Source of the DNA: Chloroflexi bacterium TSY
Lineage (GTDB): Bacteria > Chloroflexota > Anaerolineae > Caldilineales > Caldilineaceae
NCBI GenBank assembly: GCA_019217005.1
Contig: JAHBNG010000064.1
Location: 15,454-79,453 of the forward strand
Direction of reading: 5' to 3'
DNA length: 64,000 nucleotides
Positions 18,295-62,429 of the stretch are shown in pieces. How positions within the stretch are numbered: the first letter of the stretch is position 1; each line of letters opens with the position of its first letter. The position numbers and the translations under genes were made by a program. Under the pieces are notes generated by a model. The model ran no database searches. It was not told the origin of the DNA and saw only the letters and a program-made list of their open reading frames with translations.

Positions 18295-19792
18295 CTTTAC
18301 TTTCTGGTAAAAGAAAAGAGATGAGAAATGTGACAAAAAGCGGTTAGCAGTTCATCCTAAAGGTAGAGAACCCAAAAAGGAGGAAGGAATGCTAACCGCG
18401 CCAGAAATAACTATAGCAGTACTGATGAATGTATTGCAAGTAACGCCGATGGGAACAAACGTAAATGTAATGCGTCTGATGTGGGCAATGCTGAATGGGT
18501 CGTTTCTGAAAAGTCGAGGAGCAATCCATAGCGCATTGAAAGAAAGCGGGTTTGAAGATGAGGAGCTCCGGCGAAGCTGGTGGAGCTTTCGATATGGATC
18601 ATGGGATATCACAAGTCTGCTGGGGTCGTGGCAAGAAGAAGTGGAGTGGAAAGGGAATGGGAGGCAAAAAAGTTAGAAGGGTACCGAGTGAAAAGCATAG
18701 ATATCACAGGGTTCTGGCGACCGAAGCTGCAAGGGAAAGTGAACCGACTCTATAACTCAACGGCTCGTCGGGCATTGCCCGCTCATCTTTGGAGTGATGA
18801 TAAGCTCGGGGGAGATAGGCGGGAAGCGAGTGCCACTGCTCAAGGCAATCATGAGATGCACGGTTGGAACAAAGGAAAGTGAGTTTCGGAAAAAGCTGCT
18901 GACAGAGACGAAGAAATCACTGGAGTCAGACGAAGTGGCGGTGGTCGATGCCGGGTTTACAATCAGAGAAATGCTAGAAAGCGGCATCGACCGATTTGTC
19001 CTGCGGGAAGCCATTAACTGCACAGTGCGCCGCAATGAGTTCCCCAAACGCAAAGAAAAAAGGCAGACCACCTGAATATGGTGATATTGTGCGTCCGCTC
19101 TCTCGCAGCTATAAGGGAAAGCGACTCGAGGCTACAACTCCGGACTCGTCTGGTCGCTTTCTCTATAGTGGTCGCCTGATTTGCTATCAAGCATGGCACA
19201 ATCTCGTCCCCAGAACAACCAAGGTGGATACAGCCAACCGTACCTACTCGATTTACGTCATTCAGGATCCGGCCTACAACACACCTTTGGTTTTGGCGAC
19301 CGTTATGACTTTGCAGCCTGAAACCATTTATCTTGTCTACCTGGAACGCTGGCCTGTTGAACCTCCCCCCCTTGGCTTCCAAGCAGATGATTGGCTTACA
19401 TCGTCAATTTGTTCATGCCGATGAGGCTTGTTTCCGCTTACCTGAACTGGGGCTGCTTGCTGGCAATCTTCTTTCCCATTTAGCCGCTTCTCTTCCTCCC
19501 ATACCGACTGGCTACTGGGATCGAGAGCCTCAATCCACTCCCGGCAGGCTGCGCCGTGTTCTCTCGAGTGCTCTTTTTCCAACTCCTGACCAACTCGACC
19601 CTGACTTTCGGAAAAAGGCCTCGGTTTCACACCATTTCCCTAAAGGCGTTCTCGCTCATCGCCGCCTCAATGCCGCTGCTTAAACTAGCCGAGCACTATT
19701 TTTACATTTTATCCCGTTTTTTCAGGGTGGATTCTTTTTTCCGCCCCTTTCGGTTTGCCCTTTGTCACTCAAGCCTTTACCAGAAAGTAAAG
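18295..19792 (+). mobile_element. IS4-superfamily insertion sequence, copy 1
   Basis: Ends CTTTACTTTCTGGTAAA and TTTACCAGAAAGTAAAG are inverted; TACAT is duplicated at 18290-18294 and 19793-19797. About 1.5 kb, near-identical to the copy at 46411-47911. It separates the deacetylase gene from its upstream region. Its transposase gene has more indels than the other copy. Confidence 0.93.
18389..19683 (+). pseudogene. IS4-type transposase, multiply frameshifted (copy 1)
   Basis: Pieces in several frames rebuild one DDE protein: KSIDITGFWRPKLQG (first D), EVAVVDAGFTIREM (second D) and the YREK signature YLERWPVE. Compared with copy 2 it lacks one G at about 18655 (GAAAGGGAA), lacks a GC at about 18780 and has an extra C in the run at about 19365. 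A further +1 shift at a run of six A (19055-19060) is shared by both copies. Not functional as it stands. Confidence 0.88.
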
Positions 19793-43207: not shown

Positions 43208-43326
43208 AGGGTTTACCTGCTTTCCATTTGCGAACAAGCTGGACTGGTTTCAACTGATATGGGAGTTCGGTCTGCTTCTATCGCCGTTTTCTGCTCATGT
43301 AGCCGTTATTCCAACCCAAACCCATC

Positions 43327-46050
43327 ATGAAACAAAACATCATCACCACCAACATCGCCGTTTCATATACCCAATGTCCGCGCAAAGCTTTTCTCCTTCT
43401 TTCCGGCGTCAAAAGCGGACCACCCCACGAATATGTTCAGATTCTCGAGTCGAAAAAGCACGCAAGCCAGACGCAATATCTGGAAAAGCTGGCCCAGGAG
43501 AAACCCGACGTAGTCGCCTACCAGACCAACGACTTGAAGAGCAAACATCGGTTTCTCACCAATGCCTCGCTCATGACCGGCATGTTCAAGGCCGAGTGCG
43601 GTCTATTAACTAGGGTGGCGAGCCATTCAGCATTGGGCCATTACAGCTATGAACCAACCATCTTTATTGGTACCCACAAAGTCAGCAAAGAACAGAAGCT
43701 GACCCTCTTCTTCACAGCGCGCGTATTAGAAGAGCTTCAAACGAAACCACCCGCTACTGGATATATCATCGACGTGAGTGGCAAGTCTCACAAAGTAAAG
43801 TTGGAAGAGAGTGCTCAGAGTTTGCTCCATGTTTTGGATCCTCTGCAGGAGTGGCTGGCGGAGGATGCGCCAGAAGAACCACCCGTAATTCTGAACAAGC
43901 ACTGCCCAATCTGCCAGTTTCGCGCGGCATGTCGAGCCAAAGCCGAGCAGGAGAACAATCTCAGTCTACTGGACAGGGTGACGCGCAAAATCATCCGCAA
44001 GTATGAGCGGAAGGGAATTTTTACTGTTACCCAGTTGTCCTACACATTCAAGCCGCGCAAGCGCAAGAAGCATGCCAAGAATCCACCACCCGTTACCCAT
44101 AAGTTAGAGTTGCAGGCGCTGGCTATTCGCGAAAAGAAGATCTATTTACAGGAATTGCCCGAAATTACCCAACACCCGACGAAACTTTTCCTGGATATCG
44201 AAGGCATCCCTGACCAGAATGCTTACTATCTAATTGGCCTGCTGGTCTGCGAGGATGAGTCAAGCACACATCACTCGTTTTGGGCCGATACGCTGGCGGA
44301 TGAGGCACGGATCTGGCAGCAGTTTGTGGATAAAGCTAACGAGTATTCAGACGCTCCGCTCTATCACTATGGCAACTATGAGGCCAAGGCAATTAAGAAG
44401 CTGGCGAAGCGTTACGAGACGGATGAAGAACAGTTACTCAAGAGGCTGGTCAACGTCAATGGCTATATTTATGGCAAGGTCTACTTTCCCGTCTACTCGA
44501 ATCGGTTGAAGGAGATTGGGGAGTTTATTGGAGCGGCGTGGTCGGCACTTGATGCCTCTGGTCTACAATCGTTAGTCTGGTGGCATCAGTGGGAGAGAAT
44601 CCGTAATATTGAATCCAAGGACTTACTTCTAACCTACAATCACGAGGATTGCTTGGCACTGAAGTTGTTGGTCGATGAGTTATCGAAGATGACATTCTCC
44701 GCAGAAATACTGTCTGAGGTCGACCTTTCCATTCAGCCCAATTGGCGTGCTACGGAAGTTGGTGAGGTTGTTCATAGCCAATTTGACGAAATACTCAAAT
44801 TTGCTCATTCCAATTACGATAAAAAGAAAATCCGCTTTAGACAGAACCAGGAACATAAGGTCCAACAGAAAGTTCGCCAAAGACATAAACAAAGGCCACG
44901 CCCTACAAAAGTAATCCAAGTGCCGCAAAGTGAATTTTGCCCTAGATGTAAAACTGCACCACTCCTACCGGAAAAAAGGATATGTAAGAGGTTAATTGTT
45001 GACCTCATTTTGACAAAAAACGGAATCAGAAAGACTGTTACTGAGTATGTGGGAATCAAAACACGTTGCTCTAGATGTGAGAGTTGGCATATTCCGCTAG
45101 GCATCAGTAAATATAAACCTGCGCAATTGTATGGACATGGGGTCAAAGCTTGGATTGTCTACCATCGAATAGCTTTGTGTATTCCATATGAGCGGATTTC
45201 TGAAGCGATAGAGGAACAGTTTAATGAGGAAGTAGGTGCGACCGCTATTCGAGTCCTCACAAGGAGCTTGCGTCACTATTATGCAGAGACTGAGGAAATC
45301 ATAACTCGGCAATTGTTGAAAAGTCCCTTTATTCATGTTGATGAGACACCAATCAGTATTCGGGGTGTTAATCAGTATGTGTGGGTATTCACAGATGGAA
45401 AATATGTGGTATTTAAATTGACAGCAACCAGAGAGCCGACGATTGTGTATGATCTTTTGGGTGAATATAATGGCATTCTGATTTCAGATTTTTATCCTGG
45501 TTATGATTCCGTACAGTACCGGCAGCAAAAATGTTGGGTTCATCTAATCCGAGAAATTAATGATGATCTTTGGTCGGCTCCCTTTGACGCTGAATTCGAA
45601 AAATTCGTTATAGAAGTAAGAAATCTAATCATCCCGATAATGGAAGCTGTGCAAAAGCATGGCCTAAAACGTCGAAACCTAAATAAATTCCAAAAGCCAG
45701 TTGATGAGTTTTATAAAAGGACGATTACTGATAGAAGTTATAGATCCGAATTACCCGTTAAATATCAAAATCGCTTTCTACGGCATCGTGATAGTTTATT
45801 CACTTTTCTTAAATGCGATGGGATACCTTGGCACAATAATACAGCCGAAACAGGTATTAGACATTTTGTTATCCAACAAAAAATATCAGGCACTTTTTTT
45901 GAGTTAGGTGCTCGTGATTATTTATTGCTACTCGGTATCCGTCAAACCTGCCGCTTCCAAAACAAATCTTTCTTCAAGTTCCTCTTCTCTGGCGAAACAG
46001 ACCTCGACGAGTTCCAAAAGTCGAAGCGCTCTCGTAAATCGATTTCATGA
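43327..46050 (+). CDS. Fusion protein A: RecB/Cas4-like nuclease + RNase H-fold exonuclease + IS66-type transposase
   Basis: 907 residues in one uninterrupted frame. Residues 1 to about 260 resemble the TM0106-type RecB-like nucleases, with four cysteines placed as for a Cas4/AddB-type iron-sulfur cluster (C17 in YTQCPRK; C193, C196, C202 in CPICQFRAAC). Residues about 283-455 are a YprB/DnaQ-like RNase H fold (FLDIEG with D290/E292, YGNYEAKAI, YNHEDC with D441). After a basic linker comes a zinc ribbon (C538, C541, C581, C584) and an IS66-type DDE domain (HVDET D672, ISDFY D721, NNTAE E841), ending QTCRFQ.KSFFKFL. All key residues are present. Base composition becomes more A+T-rich from about 44.6 kb. 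No terminal repeats found. Confidence 0.85.
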   Translation: MKQNIITTNIAVSYTQCPRKAFLLLSGVKSGPPHEYVQILESKKHASQTQYLEKLAQEKPDVVAYQTNDLKSKHRFLTNASLMTGMFKAECGLLTRVASHSALGHYSYEPTIFIGTHKVSKEQKLTLFFTARVLEELQTKPPATGYIIDVSGKSHKVKLEESAQSLLHVLDPLQEWLAEDAPEEPPVILNKHCPICQFRAACRAKAEQENNLSLLDRVTRKIIRKYERKGIFTVTQLSYTFKPRKRKKHAKNPPPVTHKLELQALAIREKKIYLQELPEITQHPTKLFLDIEGIPDQNAYYLIGLLVCEDESSTHHSFWADTLADEARIWQQFVDKANEYSDAPLYHYGNYEAKAIKKLAKRYETDEEQLLKRLVNVNGYIYGKVYFPVYSNRLKEIGEFIGAAWSALDASGLQSLVWWHQWERIRNIESKDLLLTYNHEDCLALKLLVDELSKMTFSAEILSEVDLSIQPNWRATEVGEVVHSQFDEILKFAHSNYDKKKIRFRQNQEHKVQQKVRQRHKQRPRPTKVIQVPQSEFCPRCKTAPLLPEKRICKRLIVDLILTKNGIRKTVTEYVGIKTRCSRCESWHIPLGISKYKPAQLYGHGVKAWIVYHRIALCIPYERISEAIEEQFNEEVGATAIRVLTRSLRHYYAETEEIITRQLLKSPFIHVDETPISIRGVNQYVWVFTDGKYVVFKLTATREPTIVYDLLGEYNGILISDFYPGYDSVQYRQQKCWVHLIREINDDLWSAPFDAEFEKFVIEVRNLIIPIMEAVQKHGLKRRNLNKFQKPVDEFYKRTITDRSYRSELPVKYQNRFLRHRDSLFTFLKCDGIPWHNNTAETGIRHFVIQQKISGTFFELGARDYLLLLGIRQTCRFQNKSFFKFLFSGETDLDEFQKSKRSRKSIS

Positions 46051-46364
46051 ACCACAGTTACCCGCCCAAATGGATCGTGAAGCATTTTTCAGAAAGCGGT
46101 GCTACGAGGATAGTTTGATATAATAGATTGCAGCCAAATGTCTTGGCAAAATAATATTGTAAAATTGTTTTTTATGCGTAAGAAATAGCCGCTTGTTTCT
46201 GCGTATTTTATCGAATACAATGTGTTTACGTGACCATGTTTATCGACATCCAAGATAGGCCCAAAGAGAATCAGTAGGCCGCAACGAAGCTGGAATTAAG
46301 AGAATTGACTCCAGACTACATGACTGTGGACTTCTGAGAATAGCTTCAGTAGGGAGAAAATGAT
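46051..46364. other. Spacer downstream of fusion A
   Basis: No gene recognised. CACAGTTACCCGCCC and TTTTTCAGAAAGCGGTGCT (46057-46107) recur in altered form at about 51955-52010 downstream of the transposase remnant, so the fusion-gene repeat unit extends about 60 bases past its stop codon. The rest should hold the promoter of the AhpD-like operon. Confidence 0.4.
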
Positions 46365-46410
46365 ATGGGAGAAAACGATATGGAAGAGAATTATAGAGAC
46401 GATGTAAAAT

Positions 46411-47911
46411 CTTTACTTTCTGGTAAAAGAAAAGAGATGAGAAATGTGACAAAAAGCGGTTAGCAGTTCATCCTAAAGGTAGAGAACCCAAAAAGGAGGA
46501 AGGAATGCTAACCGCGCCAGAAATAACTATAGCAGTACTGATGAATGTATTGCAAGTAACGCCGATGGGAACAAACGTAAATGTAATGCGTCTGATGTGG
46601 GCAATGCTGAATGGGTCGTTTCTGAAAAGTCGAGGAGCAATCCATAGCGCATTGAAAGAAAGCGGGTTTGAAGATGAGGAGCTCCGGCGAAGCTGGTGGA
46701 GCTTTCGATATGGATCATGGGATATCACAAGTCTGCTGGGGTCGTGGCAAGAAGAAGTGGAGTGGAAAGGGGAATGGGAGGCAAAAAAGTTAGAAGGGTA
46801 CCGAGTGAAAAGCATAGATATCACAGGGTTCTGGCGACCGAAGCTGCAAGGGAAAGTGAACCGACTCTATAACTCAACGGCTCGTCGGGGCATTGCCCGC
46901 GCTCATCTTTGGAGTGATGATAAGCTCGGGGGAGATAGGCGGGAAGCGAGTGCCACTGCTCAAGGCAATCATGAGATGCACGGTTGGAACAAAGGAAAGT
47001 GAGTTTCGGAAAAAGCTGCTGAAAGAGACGAAGAAATCACTGGAGTCAGACGAAGTGGCGGTGGTCGATGCCGGGTTTACAATCAGAGAAATGCTAGAAA
47101 GCGGCATAGACCGATTTGTCCTGCGGGAAGCCATTAACTGCACAGTGCGCCGCAATGAGTTCCCCAAACGCAAAGAAAAAAGGCAGACCACCTGAATATG
47201 GTGATATTGTGCGTCCGCTCTCTCGCAGCTATAAGGGAAAGCGACTCGAGGCTACAACTCCGGACTCGTCTGGTCGCTTTCTCTATAGTGGTCGCCTGAT
47301 TTGCTATCAAGCATGGCACAATCTCGTCCCCAGAACAACCAAGGTGGATACAGCCAACCGTACCTACTCGATTTACGTCATTCAGGATCCGGCCTACAAC
47401 ACACCTTTGGTTTTGGCGACCGTTATGACTTTGCAGCCTGAAACCATTTATCTTGTCTACCTGGAACGCTGGCCTGTTGAACATCCCCCCTTGGCTTCCA
47501 AGCAGATGATTGGCTTACATCGTCAATTTGTTCATGCCGATGAGGCTTGTTTCCGCTTACCTGAACTGGGGCTGCTGGCTGGCAATCTTCTTTCCCATTT
47601 AGCCGCTTCTCTTCCTCCCATACCGACTGGCTACTGGGATCGAGAGCCTCAATCCACTCCCGGCAGGCTGCGCCGTGTTCTCTCGAGTGCTCTTTTTCCA
47701 ACTCCTGACCAACTCGACCCTGACTTTCGGAAAAAGGCCTCGGTTTCACACCATTTCCCTAAAGGCGTTCTCGCTCATCGCCGCCTCAATGCCGCTGCTT
47801 AAACTAGCCGAGCACTATTTTTACATTTTATCCCGTTTTTTCAGGGTGGATTCTTTTTTCCGCCCCTTTCGGTTTGCCCTTTGTCACTCAAGCCTTTACC
47901 AGAAAGTAAAG
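46411..47911 (+). mobile_element. IS4-superfamily insertion sequence, copy 2
   Basis: Ends CTTTACTTTCTGGTAAA and TTTACCAGAAAGTAAAG; TAAAAT duplicated at 46405-46410 and 47912-47917. Duplication length is 5-6 bp as in IS1634-like members. Less damaged than copy 1. Confidence 0.93.
46505..47802 (+). pseudogene. IS4-type transposase, frameshifted (copy 2)
   Basis: Frame one covers residues up to STARRGIARAH, with D in SIDITGF. An extra G at about 46890 (CGGGGCA; copy 1 has CGGGCA) shifts it. Frame two holds VVDAGF and ends at the six-A run (47179-47184). Frame three, to 47802, carries the YREK motif Y-x2-R-x3-E-x6-K in YLERWPVEHPPLASK. The first shift is a private mutation; the A-run shift is shared with copy 1. 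Confidence 0.88.
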
Positions 47912-48224
47912 TAAAATTGATGATTCAGAAATTTTTAACAACATCAGGCGCGACGACACCAGCTTTACGTCAAGCGGTAATGGCACGAGCTGCTGCTCTC
48001 GTTGATGACGGACAAGAAAATGCAGAACCGGTACCCAAACATTGGCAAACTTATGTGAACAAAGTCGCCCTATATGCATATAGGGTAACCAATGAAGATG
48101 TGACACACCTAAAAGAAAATGGGTATTCAGAAGATGAGATATTCGAGGTAACAATCGCTGCTGCCATGGGGGCAGCTCGTTCGCGATTAGAGCGTGGATT
48201 GGCATTGTTGTATGGAGGTGAGTG

Positions 48225-48830
48225 ATGCGTCTACAGATTACTACGGACAAAGGTAACAAGCTACGGCCGTTACAAAAGTTACAAGGGTCATTATTAAGGT
48301 TACTGAATGAACGCATTCCAGAGCCTTACATTGTCTGTTCGTACCGTCGTAAGCTATTTGGCAAACAATTTGCCGCCTGTTTTCAAGGCATTATGCGCCA
48401 TCAGACTAGCTGGGAGGTTGGTGAAGTAGAGTTGATGGGAGCTTTTGTATCTAAGCAAAATGAATGTAATTACTGAACAATCGGTCACGCTGCGGTCGCA
48501 GCAAAAGCACTTGAGGAGCCCACAGTTCAAGCTGTGTTGGAGGATTGGCGTACTGCGCCTATTGATGAGAAACTTCGAACGACTCTGGCTTTTTTGGAGA
48601 AATTAGCGGTACCAAATGGCCAGGTTGACTTCACTGACATCGAAAAAATGCGTAATGCTGGTGTAACCGATCAAGCCATTGAGGAAGCCATTTACGTTTG
48701 TTTCCTGTTCAACATATGGGATCGCTTGGCTGATGCCTTCGATTTTGATCCGGGAACACCTGAATATATTGATAAAGCGACACACTATATGCTCAAATTC
48801 GGTTATGGTTGGGTTAGTTTACCTGGTTGA
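48225..48830 (+). CDS. AhpD-like peroxidase-type protein, candidate selenoprotein (in-frame TGA at 48474)
   Basis: One frame of 201 codons with a single internal TGA at 48474-48476. The TGA replaces the second residue of the redox pair in the AhpD core motif: QNECNY-U-TIGHAAV, that is C-x-x-U-x3-H. Coding similarity continues unbroken after it (AAKALEEPTVQAVLEDWRTA... to FGYGWVSLPG). A hairpin follows at the right spacing for a bacterial SECIS. Members with CxxC act as thiol peroxidases or disulfide reductases; a selenocysteine there is known for AhpD-like selenoproteins. If read as stop, the first 83 residues lack the active site. Simple TGC/TGT to TGA mutation is the alternative. ATG overlaps the upstream stop. 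Confidence 0.75.
48477..48502 (+). promoter_or_regulatory. Candidate bacterial SECIS hairpin
   Basis: Twelve bases after the TGA, GCTGC-GGTC-GCAGC forms a 5-bp stem with a 4-base loop beginning GG. The loop starts 17 bases after the TGA. Published bacterial SECIS rules ask for a small apical loop about 16-37 bases downstream with a G in its first two positions; both are met. A stem this short could also arise by chance. Confidence 0.5.
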
Positions 48831-48875
48831 GAACTGTCAGTAGAAAATGATCGTGAATTTTAACCCAAACCCATC

Positions 48876-51626
48876 ATGAAACAAACCATCACCACCAACA
48901 TCGCAGTTTCATACACCCAATGTCCACGCAAAGCTTTTCTCCTCCTATCCAGTGCCGAATCGGGGCCACCCCATGAATATGTCCAGATTCTCGACGCCAA
49001 AAAAAGTGCGAATCAGACGCACTATCTGGATAAGCTGGCGCAAGAAAAGCCCGACGTAATCGCCTACGAGATGCATGGGTTGGAGAGTAAACATCGGTTT
49101 CTCACCAATGCCACGCTCAAGACCGACCTGTTCGAGGCCGAGTGTGGTCTGCTAACAAAGGTGGGGAGCCACTCCGCGTTGGGCCACTACAGCTATGAAC
49201 CGACCGTCTTTGTGGGCACGCATAAAGTGAGCAAAGAGCAGAAGTTGGCCCTCTTCTTCACGGCCCACGTATTGGATCAGCTTCAGGACAAATCTCCCGT
49301 TACAGGCTATATCGTTGACGGCGCGAGAAAATCACACAAAGTCAAACTGGAAGAGAGGGCCCAAACGCTGCTCCATGTATTGGAACCCCTACAAGAATGG
49401 CTGGCTGAAGATGCACCGGAAGAACCCCCCGTAATTCTGAACAAACATTGTCCACTCTGCCCGTTTCGCGACGCCTGCCGAGCCAAAGCCGAGCAGGAGA
49501 ACAACCTCAGTCTGCTGGACAAGGTGACGCCCAAGATCGTGCGCAAATTTGAGCGCAAGGGCATCTTTACCGTTACGCAGCTCTCTTATACTTTTAAGCC
49601 TCGCAAGCGCAAGAAGCGTGCCAAAAACCCACCGCCCGTGACCCACAAGCTGGAACTGCAGGCGCTGGCCATTCGCGAAGGCAAGATCTACATACAAGAG
49701 TTGCCCGAACTCACCAGGCAGCCTGTTGAACTCTTCCTCGATATCGAAGGCATCCCCGACCAGAATGTCTACTACTTGATTGGCCTGCTGGTCTGTGAGG
49801 GTGAGTCAAGCACGCACCACTCGTTTTGGGCCGACATGCTGGCAGATGAGGCACGGATCTGGCAGCAGTTTGTGGATAAAGCCAACGAGTATCCAGACGC
49901 CCCGATCTATCATTATGGCAACTATGAGGCCAAGGCAATCAAGAAGCTGGCGAAGCGCTACGATACGGATGAAGAACAGTTGCTCAAGCGGCTGGTCAAC
50001 GTCAATGGCCTTATTTATGGCAAAGTCTATTTTCCTGTCTACTCGAATCGGTTGAAAGAGATTGGGGGGTTTATTGGGGCGAAGTGGTCGGAGCCGGATG
50101 CGTCGGGGTTGCAGAGTTTGATATGGCGATATTATTGGGAGGAGAATCGGGAGCCTCGGTACCGGAATATATTGGTGAAATATAATCAAGAAGATTGCCA
50201 AGTTCTAAAGCTGTTGATTGAAGAATTGACCAAAATAGAGATCGCAACAGATATACTCTCTGAGGCTGATTTTTCAAAACGGCAGAAGGAGCCCTCTAGT
50301 GAAACTAATGCCCAACTGCACAACCAATTGGAATCTATTCTAAAATTTGCGAACTTTAACTATGATGAACGAAAGATTAGCTTTGAAGAAACGACTAAAG
50401 GAGAAAATGTTGCGGAAACGAAAGTGGAAAACCGAATGGCAAATCAGAGATATGTTCGGATAGTACCAAAACCAAACAGAATAGTAGAGGTACGACAGCG
50501 TGGAAAATGCCCAAAGCATAATATCGCCCTGCAACCATCTGAACAATTGGCAGAGCATACCATTATCGACCTTGTATTTATGAAGAATGGGGTCCGAAGA
50601 ACGGTTATCAGATATGTAGGTCCGAAGGGGTACTGTTCCAAATGTAGCAGACTTTACCGTCCACCAAGCATCGAGGACCTAGCCCAGCAAGTATTTGGAC
50701 ATAGTTTTCAATGTTGGCTTGTATATCAGAGATTGTATTTACGTTTGCCATACAGAATTATCACACAAATGGTAGAAGATCAATTTGGAGAGCGGCTTAG
50801 ACAAGGTACGATTGTAAAAACTATTCGACGCATCGCTCAATATTACTCTATTACAAATCAAACTCTGTTAGAACTGATTCTGACAAGCCCTTTTGTCCAT
50901 GTTGATGAAACAAAAATTAGCATTCAAGGTAGTGAGCAGTGGGTATGGGTGTTTACAGATGGTCGGCGTGTCCACTTTAGATTGACAGAAACGAGAGAAG
51001 CTGACATTGTACATGACGTTTTATCTGACTATAAAGGAATTCTTATTTCAGATTTCTATACGGGCTACGATAGTGTAAAGTGCGAACAACAGAAATGTTG
51101 GGTCCATCTTATCCGAGATCTCAATGATGATCTTTGGGATACGCCGTTTGACGCTGAATTTGAGCTATTTGTTCTACAGGTCAAAGGTTTGATCATACCC
51201 ATCATGCAGGCCGTGCAGAAGTACGGTCTCAAAAAGCGTAATCTGAACAAATTCAACAAGCAGGTTAGACAGTTTTATAAAACAGCGGTTATTCATAGAC
51301 ACTATAGATCTGAATTGACTCAAAAATACCAGAACCGCTTTATCAAGTATCAGGAAAGTCTGTTCACATTTCTTGAGCATGATGGTGTTTCCTGGCACAA
51401 TAATGCTGCGGAAAGAGCCTTACGGCATTTGGCCGTACAAAGAAAGATATCTGGCTCATTTGGCGAGGGCCTTATTCATGAGTATCTTCTTCTATTAGGT
51501 CTTATGCAGACATGTCGATTCCAAAATAAATCGTTTTTGAAATTTCTCTTGTCCCAACAGAAGGATATTGATAAATTTCGTGGGCCAAAGCCCATCAAGA
51601 ACACGCGCCTTGTTGGAGATACATGA
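48876..51626 (+). CDS. Fusion protein B: RecB/Cas4-like nuclease + RNase H-fold exonuclease + IS66-type transposase
   Basis: 916 residues, same domain order as fusion A. The shared leader AACCCAAACCCATC precedes both ATGs. N-terminal cluster cysteines C16, C192 and partners (CPLCPFRDAC) and the LFLDIEG, YGNYEAKAI and YNQEDC motifs are kept. The transposase part has HVDETKISI, ISDFYTGYDS and NNAAERALRH, thus a full DDE set, and a degenerate zinc ribbon (CPKH, then YCSKC). By eye the nuclease halves of A and B are about 75-80% alike but the transposase halves only about 40-45%. Ends KSFLKFLLSQQKD, then a C-terminal tail unlike A. A fragment resembling A's own C-terminus follows directly. Confidence 0.85.
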   Translation: MKQTITTNIAVSYTQCPRKAFLLLSSAESGPPHEYVQILDAKKSANQTHYLDKLAQEKPDVIAYEMHGLESKHRFLTNATLKTDLFEAECGLLTKVGSHSALGHYSYEPTVFVGTHKVSKEQKLALFFTAHVLDQLQDKSPVTGYIVDGARKSHKVKLEERAQTLLHVLEPLQEWLAEDAPEEPPVILNKHCPLCPFRDACRAKAEQENNLSLLDKVTPKIVRKFERKGIFTVTQLSYTFKPRKRKKRAKNPPPVTHKLELQALAIREGKIYIQELPELTRQPVELFLDIEGIPDQNVYYLIGLLVCEGESSTHHSFWADMLADEARIWQQFVDKANEYPDAPIYHYGNYEAKAIKKLAKRYDTDEEQLLKRLVNVNGLIYGKVYFPVYSNRLKEIGGFIGAKWSEPDASGLQSLIWRYYWEENREPRYRNILVKYNQEDCQVLKLLIEELTKIEIATDILSEADFSKRQKEPSSETNAQLHNQLESILKFANFNYDERKISFEETTKGENVAETKVENRMANQRYVRIVPKPNRIVEVRQRGKCPKHNIALQPSEQLAEHTIIDLVFMKNGVRRTVIRYVGPKGYCSKCSRLYRPPSIEDLAQQVFGHSFQCWLVYQRLYLRLPYRIITQMVEDQFGERLRQGTIVKTIRRIAQYYSITNQTLLELILTSPFVHVDETKISIQGSEQWVWVFTDGRRVHFRLTETREADIVHDVLSDYKGILISDFYTGYDSVKCEQQKCWVHLIRDLNDDLWDTPFDAEFELFVLQVKGLIIPIMQAVQKYGLKKRNLNKFNKQVRQFYKTAVIHRHYRSELTQKYQNRFIKYQESLFTFLEHDGVSWHNNAAERALRHLAVQRKISGSFGEGLIHEYLLLLGLMQTCRFQNKSFLKFLLSQQKDIDKFRGPKPIKNTRLVGDT

Positions 51627-51631
51627 TATCA

Positions 51632-51745
51632 TTGGGCGTTTATCAAACCTGCCGCTTCCAAGGCAAATCATTCTTCAAGTTCCTCTTCTCAGGCGAAACA
51701 GACCTCGACGAGTTCCAAAAGTCGAAGCGCTCTCGTAAAGCTTAA
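51632..51745 (+). pseudogene. C-terminal remnant of a fusion-A-like IS66 transposase
   Basis: The frame LGVYQTCRFQGKSFFKFLFS, GETDLDEFQKSKRSRKA, stop is nearly the end of fusion protein A, yet it lies 6 bases after fusion gene B, whose own end is different. So this locus once carried an A-type C-terminus. Confidence 0.9.
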
Positions 51746-51887: not shown

Positions 51888-52140
51888 GAAGTAAGTCCAG
51901 CAATCCCTAATTACAGAATCCGTTAGAAGCAGCGAAAGTCGATTTCGTGTGGTCACAGTTAACCGACCTAGATGGGCTTAACGGCACTTTTCAGAAAGCA
52001 ATGCTCAGAGAATGCTTTGACGAAATCGATTGCCACCAACCATCTTGGAAAAACGAGTCTCGGTCGATCCAAACTGTACCTTATGCCCGCGGAGAGAGCA
52101 TTCTCTCATGCGGCTATACTCGAAAAACCGGCGTTAGAGA

Positions 52141-52313: not shown

Positions 52314-54113
52314 CTACATCGACAAGGGCAAAAAACCAAAGAGCCTGGCCAACGCATTGTATCGTTCCAGATCACTAAAATAGATGCCCTCATCCTGCAG
52401 CCGCGTCGTAGCTGATTGGGTGAACCCTGACTTGCTGAAATACCAGCGGGTGATCTCATCATAGCCCTTCTCGGCTTGCACGGCAGCCGTCTGTTGGATG
52501 AAAGCATCAATCTCTTTTTCACCCATCCGCTCTTGTCGATAGCGAACGGAAACGAGCCAGGCGCCCAAAGCGGCGTTGCCCTCTTGTTTGTTGTAGAGCC
52601 TGTATTCCCCAATCACGTCGATTTCATGCGGGACGCCTTCTTTGATCACACCTTCCCGTCGTTCGATGGTTTCCATGCGTGGCAGCGTGACTGGTTGTGC
52701 ATGGCCAAAATAGAGAACGCCATCGACCGTGCGGTTGTCGTAGTTATTCATAACGCCTGCCACAATGATTTCCGTGAAGTGACCCGTCTGGCGGTTAATT
52801 TGGCCCTGTTTGCGATTCAATTCGCGGCTCAGCACCGCAGCCGCGTCCGCACGAGGCAGATCATCCACATCTACGTAGTGGGCATATTTGAGATATTCTC
52901 GCAGCAGCGGATCCGACGGCCCAAAAAATGTAGAAATCGTGGCCTTGTCCAGGATATCGATTTGATAGAGCTTATCCAGCGATTCGCGCACTTGAAGCAT
53001 ATCCAAGTCAAATGCCTCGATGATGCGCTTGGGGTGGATATGATCATCGGGATAGTTGACAATCCAGAGCAAGATCTTGCGCGTCACATCGTCGCCATTC
53101 AGTTCGTGTACATACTTGCCATATTCACTTTCATAGTGGATCCATAACGCCCCTTCGCTCTCGGTCAGCTCAAACAAGACGATCTCGTCTAATCTGTCAA
53201 CATCTGGGAGAGACTCAATTGCCGGGCAGTCACTATTCAAAATTGCTTCGATAGAATAAGGGTAGCCTTGCGTCCATTCCCAGATAGCCAGCGCCAATTC
53301 GCCCGTGATCTCAATCCCATTCACTTGACCGACGCGAAAGACCATATCAATGGCATGTTCTTTTGCGAGCGGACGCAAGCGTCGCAACTTAAAGCGCCCA
53401 GAAAGCATACCCCCCAAGGCGTCGCCTACCAGCATCGAGACGGATGAACCAGAAACAAGCATGGGCGCGTGGCGCGTCTCGGATGCGTGTTGGAAAGAGT
53501 CGGTTAGATTGCGCATCATTCCATTGTCAGGATTATAAACCCGCGTTAATACCTGGAATTCATCTACAATCATAGCTGTCGGCATGTCATGAGTCCATGC
53601 AATGCCCTTCGGAAAGTTGATGACCCACTGCATTTGACTATGGGCGGCAGTCCGTTGGTTCACTGGTTCTAAATCGTAACTTTTAAATAACTCTAACGCC
53701 AATTGATCTGCAACCTCGTTGGCAAACTCTCTTAATAGATCAAGCTTGGCTTTATTATGATGAAAATCTGGTCGCCGATAGCGAAAGGCCAGATAGCTAC
53801 GCATATACCCAGCAAAGTATTCTTGGGCAAATTCGTAGGCTTCAATGGGCTCAGGACGATTCAAATACTGCACAAACGAAATATATACAGGCAGTATCCG
53901 ATCCTGTTCATTGTAGAGCCGATTGAAGATCTTATGTAAAATCGCTGTCTTGCCCGTGCGACGTAGCCCAACCAATGCATAGCTATTGCGTCCCGGATGG
54001 GGAATACCGCTCGCCCATTTCCACAATAGATCCAAATCTCGTTTGCGGTTAACAAACCATTCCCCAGCCGGTTCTTCCAACGGACCGTCATAAGACCATC
54101 CCTGGTCGCCCAT
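52314..54113 (-). CDS. AAA ATPase (archaeal-type ATPase family) with C-terminal nuclease-like domain
   Basis: 599 residues. N-terminal FVNRKRDLDLLWKWA and Walker A VGLRRTGKTAIL (about residues 48-57), Walker B AMIVDEFQVL, sensor APMLVSGSSVSMLVG, then a winged-helix region. The last 150 residues hold HEIDVIGEYRL, then GAWLVSVRYRQ, spaced like the core of PD-(D/E)XK folds although the usual lysine is replaced, so nuclease activity is doubtful. Proteins with this order (ATPase_2 type) are scattered in mobile regions and poorly understood. A paralog is at 60621-62429 and a remnant at 33440-33860. The 71-bp palindrome lies directly upstream. Confidence 0.85.
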   Translation of the reverse strand: MGDQGWSYDGPLEEPAGEWFVNRKRDLDLLWKWASGIPHPGRNSYALVGLRRTGKTAILHKIFNRLYNEQDRILPVYISFVQYLNRPEPIEAYEFAQEYFAGYMRSYLAFRYRRPDFHHNKAKLDLLREFANEVADQLALELFKSYDLEPVNQRTAAHSQMQWVINFPKGIAWTHDMPTAMIVDEFQVLTRVYNPDNGMMRNLTDSFQHASETRHAPMLVSGSSVSMLVGDALGGMLSGRFKLRRLRPLAKEHAIDMVFRVGQVNGIEITGELALAIWEWTQGYPYSIEAILNSDCPAIESLPDVDRLDEIVLFELTESEGALWIHYESEYGKYVHELNGDDVTRKILLWIVNYPDDHIHPKRIIEAFDLDMLQVRESLDKLYQIDILDKATISTFFGPSDPLLREYLKYAHYVDVDDLPRADAAAVLSRELNRKQGQINRQTGHFTEIIVAGVMNNYDNRTVDGVLYFGHAQPVTLPRMETIERREGVIKEGVPHEIDVIGEYRLYNKQEGNAALGAWLVSVRYRQERMGEKEIDAFIQQTAAVQAEKGYDEITRWYFSKSGFTQSATTRLQDEGIYFSDLERYNALARLFGFLPLSM

Positions 54114-60620: not shown

Positions 60621-62429
60621 ATGAATGAGCAACAAGGCCCCCTAGAAGAGTCCGCAAGTGAGTGGTTTGTCAACCGCAAAGAGGAGCTGGATCGCTACTG
60701 GAAGTGGGCAACCAGATTTCCCAATCGTATAAAAGGGAGCGAAGCACTGATCGGGTTGCGGCGCACAGGGAAGACGGCCATATTACACAAACTCTTTAAT
60801 CGGCTTTTTTATGAGCAAAATCGCATGATGCCGATCTATATTTCATTTGCCCGCTATGTGAATCGCCCCGAGCCGATTGGTGCCTATGAATTTGCCAAAG
60901 AGTATTTTACTGGGTTTATTCGCAGCTACTTGGCGTTCCGTTATCGTCAACCAGATTTACTAAACAACAATATTCAGTATGAACAACTACGCGACTTCTC
61001 AGAAAAGATAAAGGATGAACTTGCATTAGAATGGTTTCGCGTCTACGAACTCGAGCTGTCTAGCACACAAAATACCCGTGCCCACAGTATAATGCAGTGG
61101 GTAATTAATTTCCCCAAAGGGTATGCCTGGAACCATGACATACCGATGGTCATCATCATAGATGAGTTTCAGGTGCTAACGAGCGTGTATAACCCTGATA
61201 GCAAGCGAATGCGCAACCTGACCGATTCATTTCAAGAAGCATCGGAAACAAAATGGGCCCCATTACTGGTCTCTGGCTCTTCAGTCTCAATGATGGTGGA
61301 CGATGCATTAGGGGGAATGCTCTCTGGCCGATTTCACCCGCTCCATCTTGAGCCACTGAGCCAAGAACATGCGCTGGATATGATCGTCCGACTGGGGGGG
61401 TACAATGGCGTTGAAATGACTGAAGAATTCGCCTTAGAAATCTGGGAACTGACTGAGGGCTATCCCTATCCCATTGAGTGTATCATGAATAGTCGATCCG
61501 CTGCTGCTACGGCATTCCCGGATGGAGATGCATTAGAAGAAGTGTTGCTCTATGAACTGACCCAAACAAGGGGCGCATTGTGGTCTCACTATCACAAAGA
61601 ATATGGCAAATACATCAGCCAAATTAACGGCGATCAGATTGCGCGCAAGGTGTTGCTCTGGATCATCAAGCACCCCAAACGGCGTATCTTTGCGGATGCA
61701 ATTGCGGCTGACTTGAATCTGCAGGAACAGAAGGTGCGAGAATCTCTGGAACAGCTACAGGCGGCGGACATTATCCACTCAACCGGCTGGTATAGTTACG
61801 AAGAACCTGCCGACCCCATGCTACGACGCTACATTGAATACCAACACAAACGCGAAGTTGAACAGTTAGCCCCAGAGTTGGCGATAGAAGATCTGGTTGG
61901 CGAAGTACGCAGAATCCGTGGTGAAACGAGCCACAAAATAGGACAGATGGCCGAGAGCATTCTGGCCGGAGTCATGCGTAGTTTCGATGATCGTGATGTG
62001 GATGGGGAGACCTATTTTGGTCAACCAGGCACCATACGTCTCCCCAAAATGGCGACGATTGAACAGCGCACAGGCGTCATCAAGCAAGGCGAGATTAGCG
62101 AAATTGATGTGATCGGTGAACCCAAGCTTGTAAGGCTAAAAGGAACCGTTGCTGACGAGCCGATAGACCCAGATAGCGATAGTGTCTGGCTGGTTTCGGT
62201 GCGCTATCGACAGCAGAAGATGGGGGAACAAGCAGTAACACAATTTCTCAAGCACGCTGAGACCGTTCAAGCCGAGAAAGGATACACGACCGTCACGCGC
62301 TGGTACTTCAGCAAATCAGGCTTCACCGAAGAAGCGACTGCTTTGCTGCAAGCAGAGGGGGTTTACTTTAGCAATCTGGAACAGTTTAACACCCTGGCCA
62401 ATCAATTTGACTTCTTGGGGCTGCCTTAA
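60621..62429 (+). CDS. AAA ATPase (archaeal-type ATPase family), paralog of 52314-54113
   Basis: 602 residues, same order as its paralog, about 60% alike by eye: FVNRKEELDRYWKWA, Walker A IGLRRTGKTAIL, Walker B VIIIDEFQVL, sensor LLVSGSSVSMMVDD, C-terminal SEIDVIGEPKL and DSVWLVSVRYRQQKMGEQ. It has a 10-residue insertion between these last two blocks. TATAAT at about 60515-60520 lies 100 bases upstream. A remnant of the fusion nuclease gene lies directly before it, so both gene families meet here. Confidence 0.85.
   Translation: MNEQQGPLEESASEWFVNRKEELDRYWKWATRFPNRIKGSEALIGLRRTGKTAILHKLFNRLFYEQNRMMPIYISFARYVNRPEPIGAYEFAKEYFTGFIRSYLAFRYRQPDLLNNNIQYEQLRDFSEKIKDELALEWFRVYELELSSTQNTRAHSIMQWVINFPKGYAWNHDIPMVIIIDEFQVLTSVYNPDSKRMRNLTDSFQEASETKWAPLLVSGSSVSMMVDDALGGMLSGRFHPLHLEPLSQEHALDMIVRLGGYNGVEMTEEFALEIWELTEGYPYPIECIMNSRSAAATAFPDGDALEEVLLYELTQTRGALWSHYHKEYGKYISQINGDQIARKVLLWIIKHPKRRIFADAIAADLNLQEQKVRESLEQLQAADIIHSTGWYSYEEPADPMLRRYIEYQHKREVEQLAPELAIEDLVGEVRRIRGETSHKIGQMAESILAGVMRSFDDRDVDGETYFGQPGTIRLPKMATIEQRTGVIKQGEISEIDVIGEPKLVRLKGTVADEPIDPDSDSVWLVSVRYRQQKMGEQAVTQFLKHAETVQAEKGYTTVTRWYFSKSGFTEEATALLQAEGVYFSNLEQFNTLANQFDFLGLP

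Follow-up and report, generated by a model that had tools for sequence, protein, structure and literature searches.

Two genes in a 64,000-nucleotide stretch of DNA from Chloroflexi bacterium TSY (assembly GCA_019217005.1, contig JAHBNG010000064.1, positions 15,454 to 79,453 of the forward strand; hereafter the window) each encode a single protein chain in which a TM0106/Cas4-like domain is followed by a DEDDy exonuclease and an IS66-type DDE transposase. It is near certain that this fusion is the architecture of a protein family. We hold with moderate confidence that the protein is an enzyme which trims and joins DNA ends in trans, free of any element of its own.

A first-pass annotation of the window had described two long uninterrupted frames, each combining a RecB/Cas4-like nuclease with four cysteines, a YprB/DnaQ-like RNase H fold and a full IS66-type transposase, and both frames were confirmed (Table 1). 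Both proteins score above the curated cut-off (97.45 bits) of TIGR03491, the profile of the TM0106 family, with 264.9 bits for copy 1 and 273.3 bits for copy 2, and the match in copy 1 spans residues 7–448, that is, the entire N-terminal half. We take TIGR03491 to be equivalent to COG2251. Both proteins also match PF13482 and PF03050, and they exceed the curated cut-off of 180 bits of the IS66 profile NF033517 (183.3 and 200.3 bits). With the cas4 family profile, copy 2 reached 14.8 bits, below the cut-off of 65, and copy 1 was not among the matches listed. The predicted structure of the fusion (pLDDT 86.5), a check which the annotation had proposed, contains three parts with separate fold matches. 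In this structure the N-terminal part has a Cas4 fold, its best match being Cas4 within Cas4/Cas1/Cas2 complexes, the exonuclease part matches polymerase exonucleases, and the transposase part matches the ISCth4 transposase (6xgx, 6xg8) at 14% identity in the alignment. Searching the sequences of solved structures with a profile of the family gave nothing meaningful.

Catalytic and cluster residues were counted in 174 aligned fusions (120 of a first set and 54 of a second set), using as reference five plasmid-encoded stand-alone TM0106 proteins (four from Proteobacteria, one from Picosynechococcus). All five reference proteins keep GxxD with its aspartate, the D-T-K triplet and QxxxY with its Gln and Tyr, while the cysteines are missing from two, whereas the (D/E)xK residues are lost in all 174 fusions: none has Asp or Glu at position 112 (copy 1 numbering, the first residue of DTK) and none has Lys at 114. 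Copy 1 carries G92 at the GxxD position, I112 and I114 at DTK and T126 at QxxxY, and the site is lost in both window copies. The claim that every catalytic motif is kept in both proteins therefore fails for PD-(D/E)XK, and the motifs that remain are those of the exonuclease and the DDE domain. Because the (D/E)xK residues are gone throughout, the N-terminal part would be unlikely to cut DNA by the usual PD-(D/E)XK route. The iron–sulphur (Fe–S) cysteines C193, C196 and C202 are found in 174/174 fusions and C17 in 166/174, the other eight being gapped there; copy 1 has all four. Of the proposed four-cysteine nuclease, then, the family match and the cysteines stand and the cutting site does not. 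Exonuclease residues D290, E292, Y437 and D441 are invariant in the 174 fusions and position 352 is Glu in 164 and Asp in 10; in the transposase, D672 and D721 are likewise invariant and E841 is present in 173. Copy 1 has the full DDE triad and all five exonuclease residues, E352 included. Judged by these residues, the exonuclease and DDE parts are intact-looking and predicted to be active.

An intact D-x-K is missing as well from five of 33 gathered cyanobacterial stand-alone TM0106 proteins (L009, L020, L024, L039 and L045 in our locus numbering). This suggests that a nuclease-dead TM0106 branch may have given rise to the fusion, in which case the nuclease was lost first. Ratios of nonsynonymous to synonymous substitution rates (dN/dS, Nei–Gojobori method) in nine pairs of cyanobacterial loci were 0.22–0.44 for the Cas4-like part, 0.12–0.32 for the exonuclease and 0.10–0.28 for the transposase. 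The gene is therefore under purifying selection and all three parts are maintained, the dead Cas4-like part included.

The family extends well beyond the window. When 5.8 billion proteins were searched, 7996 candidates were scored and 3199 of them matched; the best 120 of the 3199 all carry both Pfam domains and cover 92–100% of gene 1. Few of these 120 have a named source, and the named ones are from Chloroflexota (Anaerolineae), Poribacteria and Cyanobacteria. A second search, started from a divergent alignment, gave 2048 matches, of which the best 120 again all have both domains, and revealed another clade of fusions whose N-terminal part is often called Cas4 by Pfam. A fusion protein from an Acaryochloris plasmid is about 33% identical to gene 1. 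Alignment A2 comprised 114 of 120 proteins (P0036, P0058, P0069, P0075, P0096 and P0101 were left out). A chance or annotation artefact, in which frames were fused locally in one genome, is already refuted by the two window copies (65% identity over 908 columns) together with full-length relatives in several phyla, and we give it practically no weight. This accords with the first-pass view that the pair is unlikely to be an assembly accident; the fusion recurs widely and is not confined to this genome.

Within the genomes sampled, the distribution is sparse. Scoring up to three candidates per genome, we obtained full-length matches from only two (G001 and G135) of 292 cyanobacterial genomes. 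Among 217 genomes of the Nostoc flagelliforme (G001) family, 13 match at an E value of 1e-100 or lower, two of these only by partial or more distant copies, and in the order of this species 10/388 match at 1e-90, the two samples overlapping. Among plasmid records, 2/72,556 cover at least 80% of the query. The fusion is a low-copy, patchy accessory gene of plasmids and chromosomes. A viral origin was considered and dropped, as 32 pattern matches in viral contigs included no relative and phage records gave one weak match. When the C-terminal half was searched by itself, the best 120 of 580 matches were all at least 48% identical to that of gene 1; many have RNase_H_2 and the rest are shorter, and no convincing unfused close relative was found among these 120, which were not each checked singly. 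Three short cases in genomes (G387, G002 and G343) look like deleted, truncated or interrupted fusions. VIA-align displays a portion of the matches, so that families beyond those displayed may exist. A ‘hypothetical protein’ on a plasmid of Bradyrhizobium sp. CB82 (L049, 4983–5933) is about 33% identical to residues 6–304 of gene 1 and has no transposase half. Databases name the fusion after one half only, as ‘IS66 family transposase’ or ‘TM0106 family RecB-like putative nuclease’, which may explain why the family has been overlooked.

We compared 30 distinct fusion loci (L002 and L006 were left out as repeats of L123 and L122) with 17 stand-alone IS66 loci from cyanobacterial genomes; these controls are not mutually independent, as one G004 element accounts for four of them and one G272 element for five. 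The same rule was applied to both sets: an inverted pair scoring at least 10 within 500 bp, with both arms starting GTA within the first five bases. Four fusion loci (L001, L096, L097, L124) had under 500 bp of flank on one side, and L114 has an early stop. GTA-type pairs were found at 1/30 fusion loci versus 13/17 controls. The sole passing fusion locus, L122, has a weak (score 10) and misplaced pair, 156 bp upstream and 373 bp downstream. Of the controls, L016 was positive but weak, L012, L013, L017 and L133 did not pass, and six (L014, L126, L128, L130, L132, L134) have 8–9 bp direct repeats right at their ends. Nothing consistent emerged from inverted repeats within 400–500 bp of the fusion loci, and flanking 9-bp direct repeats within 120 bp occurred at 4/30 loci against 2.7 expected by shuffling, which is no excess. 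The accessory protein TnpB (PF05717), which belongs to three-gene IS66 members (one-gene members exist), was found in 0/7 fusion-carrying genomes or records and in 3/14 control genomes. Fusion copies within a genome are 33–66% identical in the eight pairs compared, none near-identical; G672, G387, G002 and G343, where one copy is broken or partial, were left out of this comparison. Identity to the stand-alone IS66 proteins of two carrier genomes is low, at about 27–31%. The fusion is thus not an IS66 element as known, the canonical ends being absent in the readable loci. Two candidates were dropped along the way: a left end at L084/L085 (‘GTAAGAAACGC’) looked IS66-like and had no partner on the right side, and an apparent empty site in L002 opposite L084 was set aside as proof of insertion, a palindromic repeat lying at both places.

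The same loci bear on whether the gene moves by ends of another kind. It could be an IS66-derived insertion sequence which acquired a nuclease/exonuclease half and now has short non-canonical ends, so that the unit is about the gene itself, a reading we consider possible but rather unlikely. Some pairs of distinct loci do share little more than the frame: L091 and L092 are similar from the ATG to one base past the stop (88.8% identity) in different surroundings, L094 and L098 from −12 to the stop (87.7%), and L092/L112 and L092/L115 over the frame to within a dozen bases. In an Aulosira plasmid a 236-bp match stops no more than 2 bases from the stop codon, L002 and L089 have flanks 96–99% identical with different fusion genes between them, and the patchy spread in the Nostoc flagelliforme family and the existence of decayed copies would also suit such an element. 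Set against this, the boundaries differ in other pairs (−215/+36 in L084/L085; −42/+128 in L117/L124, where similarity extends into neighbouring sequence common to L118; −597/−9 in L047/L094), consistent inverted repeats are absent, direct repeats are not in excess and the eight within-genome pairs include no near-identical copies. A 4.2-kb unit with sharp ends is common to a Calothrix plasmid (L047) and G342/G343; inverted repeats are not evident by eye at those ends, and when the joined flanks were searched in 217 genomes, with two candidates scored in each, no contiguous empty site turned up for it. Local alignments upstream and downstream of the fusion genes show similarity solely among near relatives. 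Aligning the readable loci, as the annotation had proposed for mapping the ends, yielded variable boundaries. As these limits of similarity vary from pair to pair, they appear to fit recombination better than fixed ends. On contig 1 of G343 (102,424 bp; L086, L087) a fusion gene is cut at about residue 467, with halves overlapping by 6 bases of the gene, and looks as if split by another repeat-ended insertion sequence.

Recombination is also suggested within the gene. In 30-residue blocks the window proteins are 63–93% identical over residues 1–420, 20–43% over 421–660 and 53–77% thereafter, and the first 1.25 kb of the two genes are 83% identical as DNA. Because identity is so uneven and a 97-bp piece of the other gene's 3′ end lies behind gene 2 (Table 1), we read the pair as one in which the C-terminal half of one copy was replaced, a scrap of the old end being left behind. 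In L117 and L118, from one genome, the synonymous divergence (dS) is 0.21 over residues 1–200 and above 2 over 200–410, and the C-terminal half of L118 looks like that of the other clade; in L094/L098 dS is 0.21 versus 0.57. Among 120 proteins, chosen by total score to gene 1, pairwise identities correlate at 0.45–0.65 within residues 1–400, at 0.26–0.57 within 530–890 and at 0.03–0.22 between these regions. These comparisons indicate that the family swaps its N-terminal half (Cas4-like and exonuclease domains) and its C-terminal half (transposase) as modules. On our reading the family spreads by ordinary recombination and transfer.

Neighbouring genes were counted in 28 locus entries (L001, L002, L006 and W2 of the 32 were left out), reaching out to 8 kb or as far as the contig ran. 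Of the 28, 13 have a tyrosine recombinase nearby and 12 a ParA-like gene, the latter in clusters of 8 and 4. Pfam confirmed members for the recombinase cluster and the first ParA cluster, and the second ParA cluster was assigned by the look of its sequences. The context is plasmid-like and gene-exchanging, the neighbour counts having no matched control. A same-strand open frame of at least 70 residues ends within 200 bp upstream at 16/30 loci, and short tandem repeats with a period of 14–30 lie at five loci. The 32 locus entries showed no CRISPR-like array within 6 kb (or up to the contig end), in a scan that did not extend to cas genes.

Some neighbours would fit a function in anti-phage or anti-plasmid defence, in which the Cas4-like and exonuclease parts would recognise and degrade foreign DNA, the transposase fold would act as a sequence- or structure-specific nuclease, and module swaps would change specificity. 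These neighbours are HEC-01A/B (found in scanning L002, in a block common to L089), a type II restriction enzyme and methyltransferase at L095, an SNF2-type helicase at L092, with relatives at L093, L097 and L099, VapC near L048 and, by sequence look only, a Phd/YefM-like antitoxin near L117 and L118; the swapping itself also accords with defence. We nevertheless consider this reading unlikely, since the recombinases and ParA-like genes are commoner neighbours (again without a matched control), PADLOC returned only weak Cas4 similarity for the two fusion proteins examined and nothing for the window ATPase_2 protein, and the nearest Pfam-identifiable genes to the window pair are an oxidoreductase upstream and an ATPase_2 downstream. 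The HEC-01A/B candidate defence pair lies directly behind the fusion at L002 (7999–9737) and L089 (8341–10079). Four genomes (L092, L093, L097, L099) have, at most a few kb from their fusion genes, a conserved block of about 2.8 kb that encodes the SNF2-type helicase and a 346-aa protein and is 88–93% identical in the pairs aligned.

We return to the in-trans trimming and joining enzyme. The architecture, the kept and lost residues, the breadth, the selection, the swapping and the lack of canonical ends in readable loci are observed; the catalytic steps and the action in trans are inferred. The Cas4-like Fe–S domain, its cutting site lost, would probably only hold DNA ends or single strands; the DEDDy domain would trim the held end as a 3′–5′ exonuclease; and the DDE domain would nick the trimmed end or join it to a target. 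Overall the protein would be a domesticated trim-and-join, or trim-and-destroy, enzyme and not a self-moving insertion sequence. The first-pass interpretation, of a nuclease serving transposition or of a transposase fold turned to defence, is partly supported: the nuclease is not intact, and an IS66 element around the gene was not found.

Several points weigh against this proposal. The near-invariant DDE triad argues that strand transfer still matters. Several pairs at 79–91% DNA identity share little past the frame, about the size of a stand-alone IS66 unit, which would be compatible with a transposon whose ends we did not recognise. The readable loci outside the window come from cyanobacteria and plasmids only, none from Chloroflexota. 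A shifted or repaired nuclease site is possible in a minority of fusions, as the GxxD aspartate (position 92) is kept in 75/174 (28/120 of the first set and 47/54 of the second) and a [D/E]xK string, out of register with the active site, falls within columns 108–120 in 5/174, all of the second set (P0263, P0268, P0273, P0276, P0281). Finally, choosing the 120 proteins by total score to gene 1 can depress the correlation between the N- and C-terminal halves, so that this effect may be overstated; the single swap cases are unaffected.

Table 1 Features of the fusion gene pair in the window.
Feature	Position	Strand	Basis
Fusion gene 1, 907 aa	43327..46050	+	Open reading frame, Pfam and curated-profile matches
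Gene 1 Cas4/TM0106-like domain, residues 1–210	43327..43956	+	Fe–S cysteines kept, (D/E)xK lost
Gene 1 DEDDy exonuclease domain, residues 283–468	44173..44730	+	PF13482; fold match to B-family polymerase exonucleases
Gene 1 four-cysteine zinc-ribbon-like stretch of transposase half (C538, C541, C581, C584)	44938..45078	+	
Gene 1 IS66-type DDE domain, residues 601–857 (D672, D721, E841)	45127..45897	+	PF03050; ISCth4 fold match
Fusion gene 2, 916 aa	48876..51626	+	Open reading frame, Pfam and curated-profile matches
Gene 2 Cas4/TM0106-like domain	48876..49502	+	Profile match, alignment to gene 1
Gene 2 RNase_H_2 / DEDDy exonuclease domain, residues 286–451	49731..50228	+	Pfam
Gene 2 IS66-type DDE domain, residues 606–863	50691..51464	+	Pfam
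97-bp leftover behind gene 2 stop, 96% identical to gene 1 3′ end (45942–46038)	51643..51739	+	
Short stretch 5′ of gene 1, common to gene 2 (48857–48875)	43308..43326	+	Upstream similarity stops here
Stretch 3′ of gene 1, about 71% identical to 51932–52053 behind gene 2	46033..46151	+	

Elsewhere in the window, a 1.5-kb insertion sequence is present in two copies (46411–47911 and 18295–19792) which are 99.4% identical, with a broken frame resembling IS701-type transposases and 17-bp inverted ends; the copy between the two fusion genes has TAAAAT repeated on both sides. Behind the fusion pair lie two ATPase_2 (AAA) proteins of about 600 aa, at 52314–54113 and 60621–62429 on opposite strands, which look like paralogues. 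An Rfam scan of the window gave no match.

Among the open-access papers listed, judged by titles and abstract starts (subscription journals and preprints lay outside the search), none describes the fusion, and no paper linking TM0106 with IS66 was found; TM0106 alone gives unrelated papers. Passages of PMC3985635 place COG2251 RecB-family proteins with PF13482 beside polymerase-type exonucleases and IS66 in a separate clade of the RNase H-like superfamily, and those passages do not mention a fusion of the two.

Each half of the fusion resembles a known family. Like TM0106 proteins, it has an N-terminal half above the family cut-off, Fe–S cysteines and a DEDD exonuclease domain; stand-alone TM0106 proteins, in contrast, have no transposase half. 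Like the IS66-family transposase TnpC, it has a C-terminal half above the NF033517 cut-off that also matches PF03050, a DDE triad and conserved cysteines before the triad, which in gene 1 (C538, C541, C581, C584) we read as a putative zinc ribbon. Unlike IS66 insertion sequences, it is of low copy number and lacks consistent GTA-type inverted repeats, 8-bp duplications and TnpB. The ISCth4 transposase, presumably of the IS256 family, differs from it in having no N-terminal nuclease/exonuclease half. A transposase whose triad is intact but around which no element is evident, fused in several phyla to an exonuclease and a Cas4-like domain that is dead, offers a direct test case of the way in which transposases are turned into cellular tools for processing DNA.

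A parallel in kinds of parts is CRISPR adaptation by Cas4–Cas1–Cas2, which likewise brings together a Cas4-like end binder, a DEDD exonuclease and a DNA-joining enzyme; a DnaQ-type exonuclease takes part in some of these adaptation systems. The fusion differs in that its joining enzyme is a DDE transposase and not Cas1, its parts form one chain, its Cas4 site is dead and no CRISPR-like array was found within 6 kb of the scanned loci. By analogy, the protein might be a one-chain DNA capture machine, in which the dead Cas4-like domain would select ends, the DEDDy domain would trim them to length and the DDE domain would insert them into a host or plasmid site, a proposal we regard as quite improbable. 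If it were true, the exchangeable C-terminal half would set the target, and the fusion would parallel CRISPR adaptation (Cas4, DnaQ, Cas1) with an integrase derived from a transposase independently of Cas1. As its parts match the kinds used in CRISPR adaptation, the family may represent another way by which DNA capture arose.

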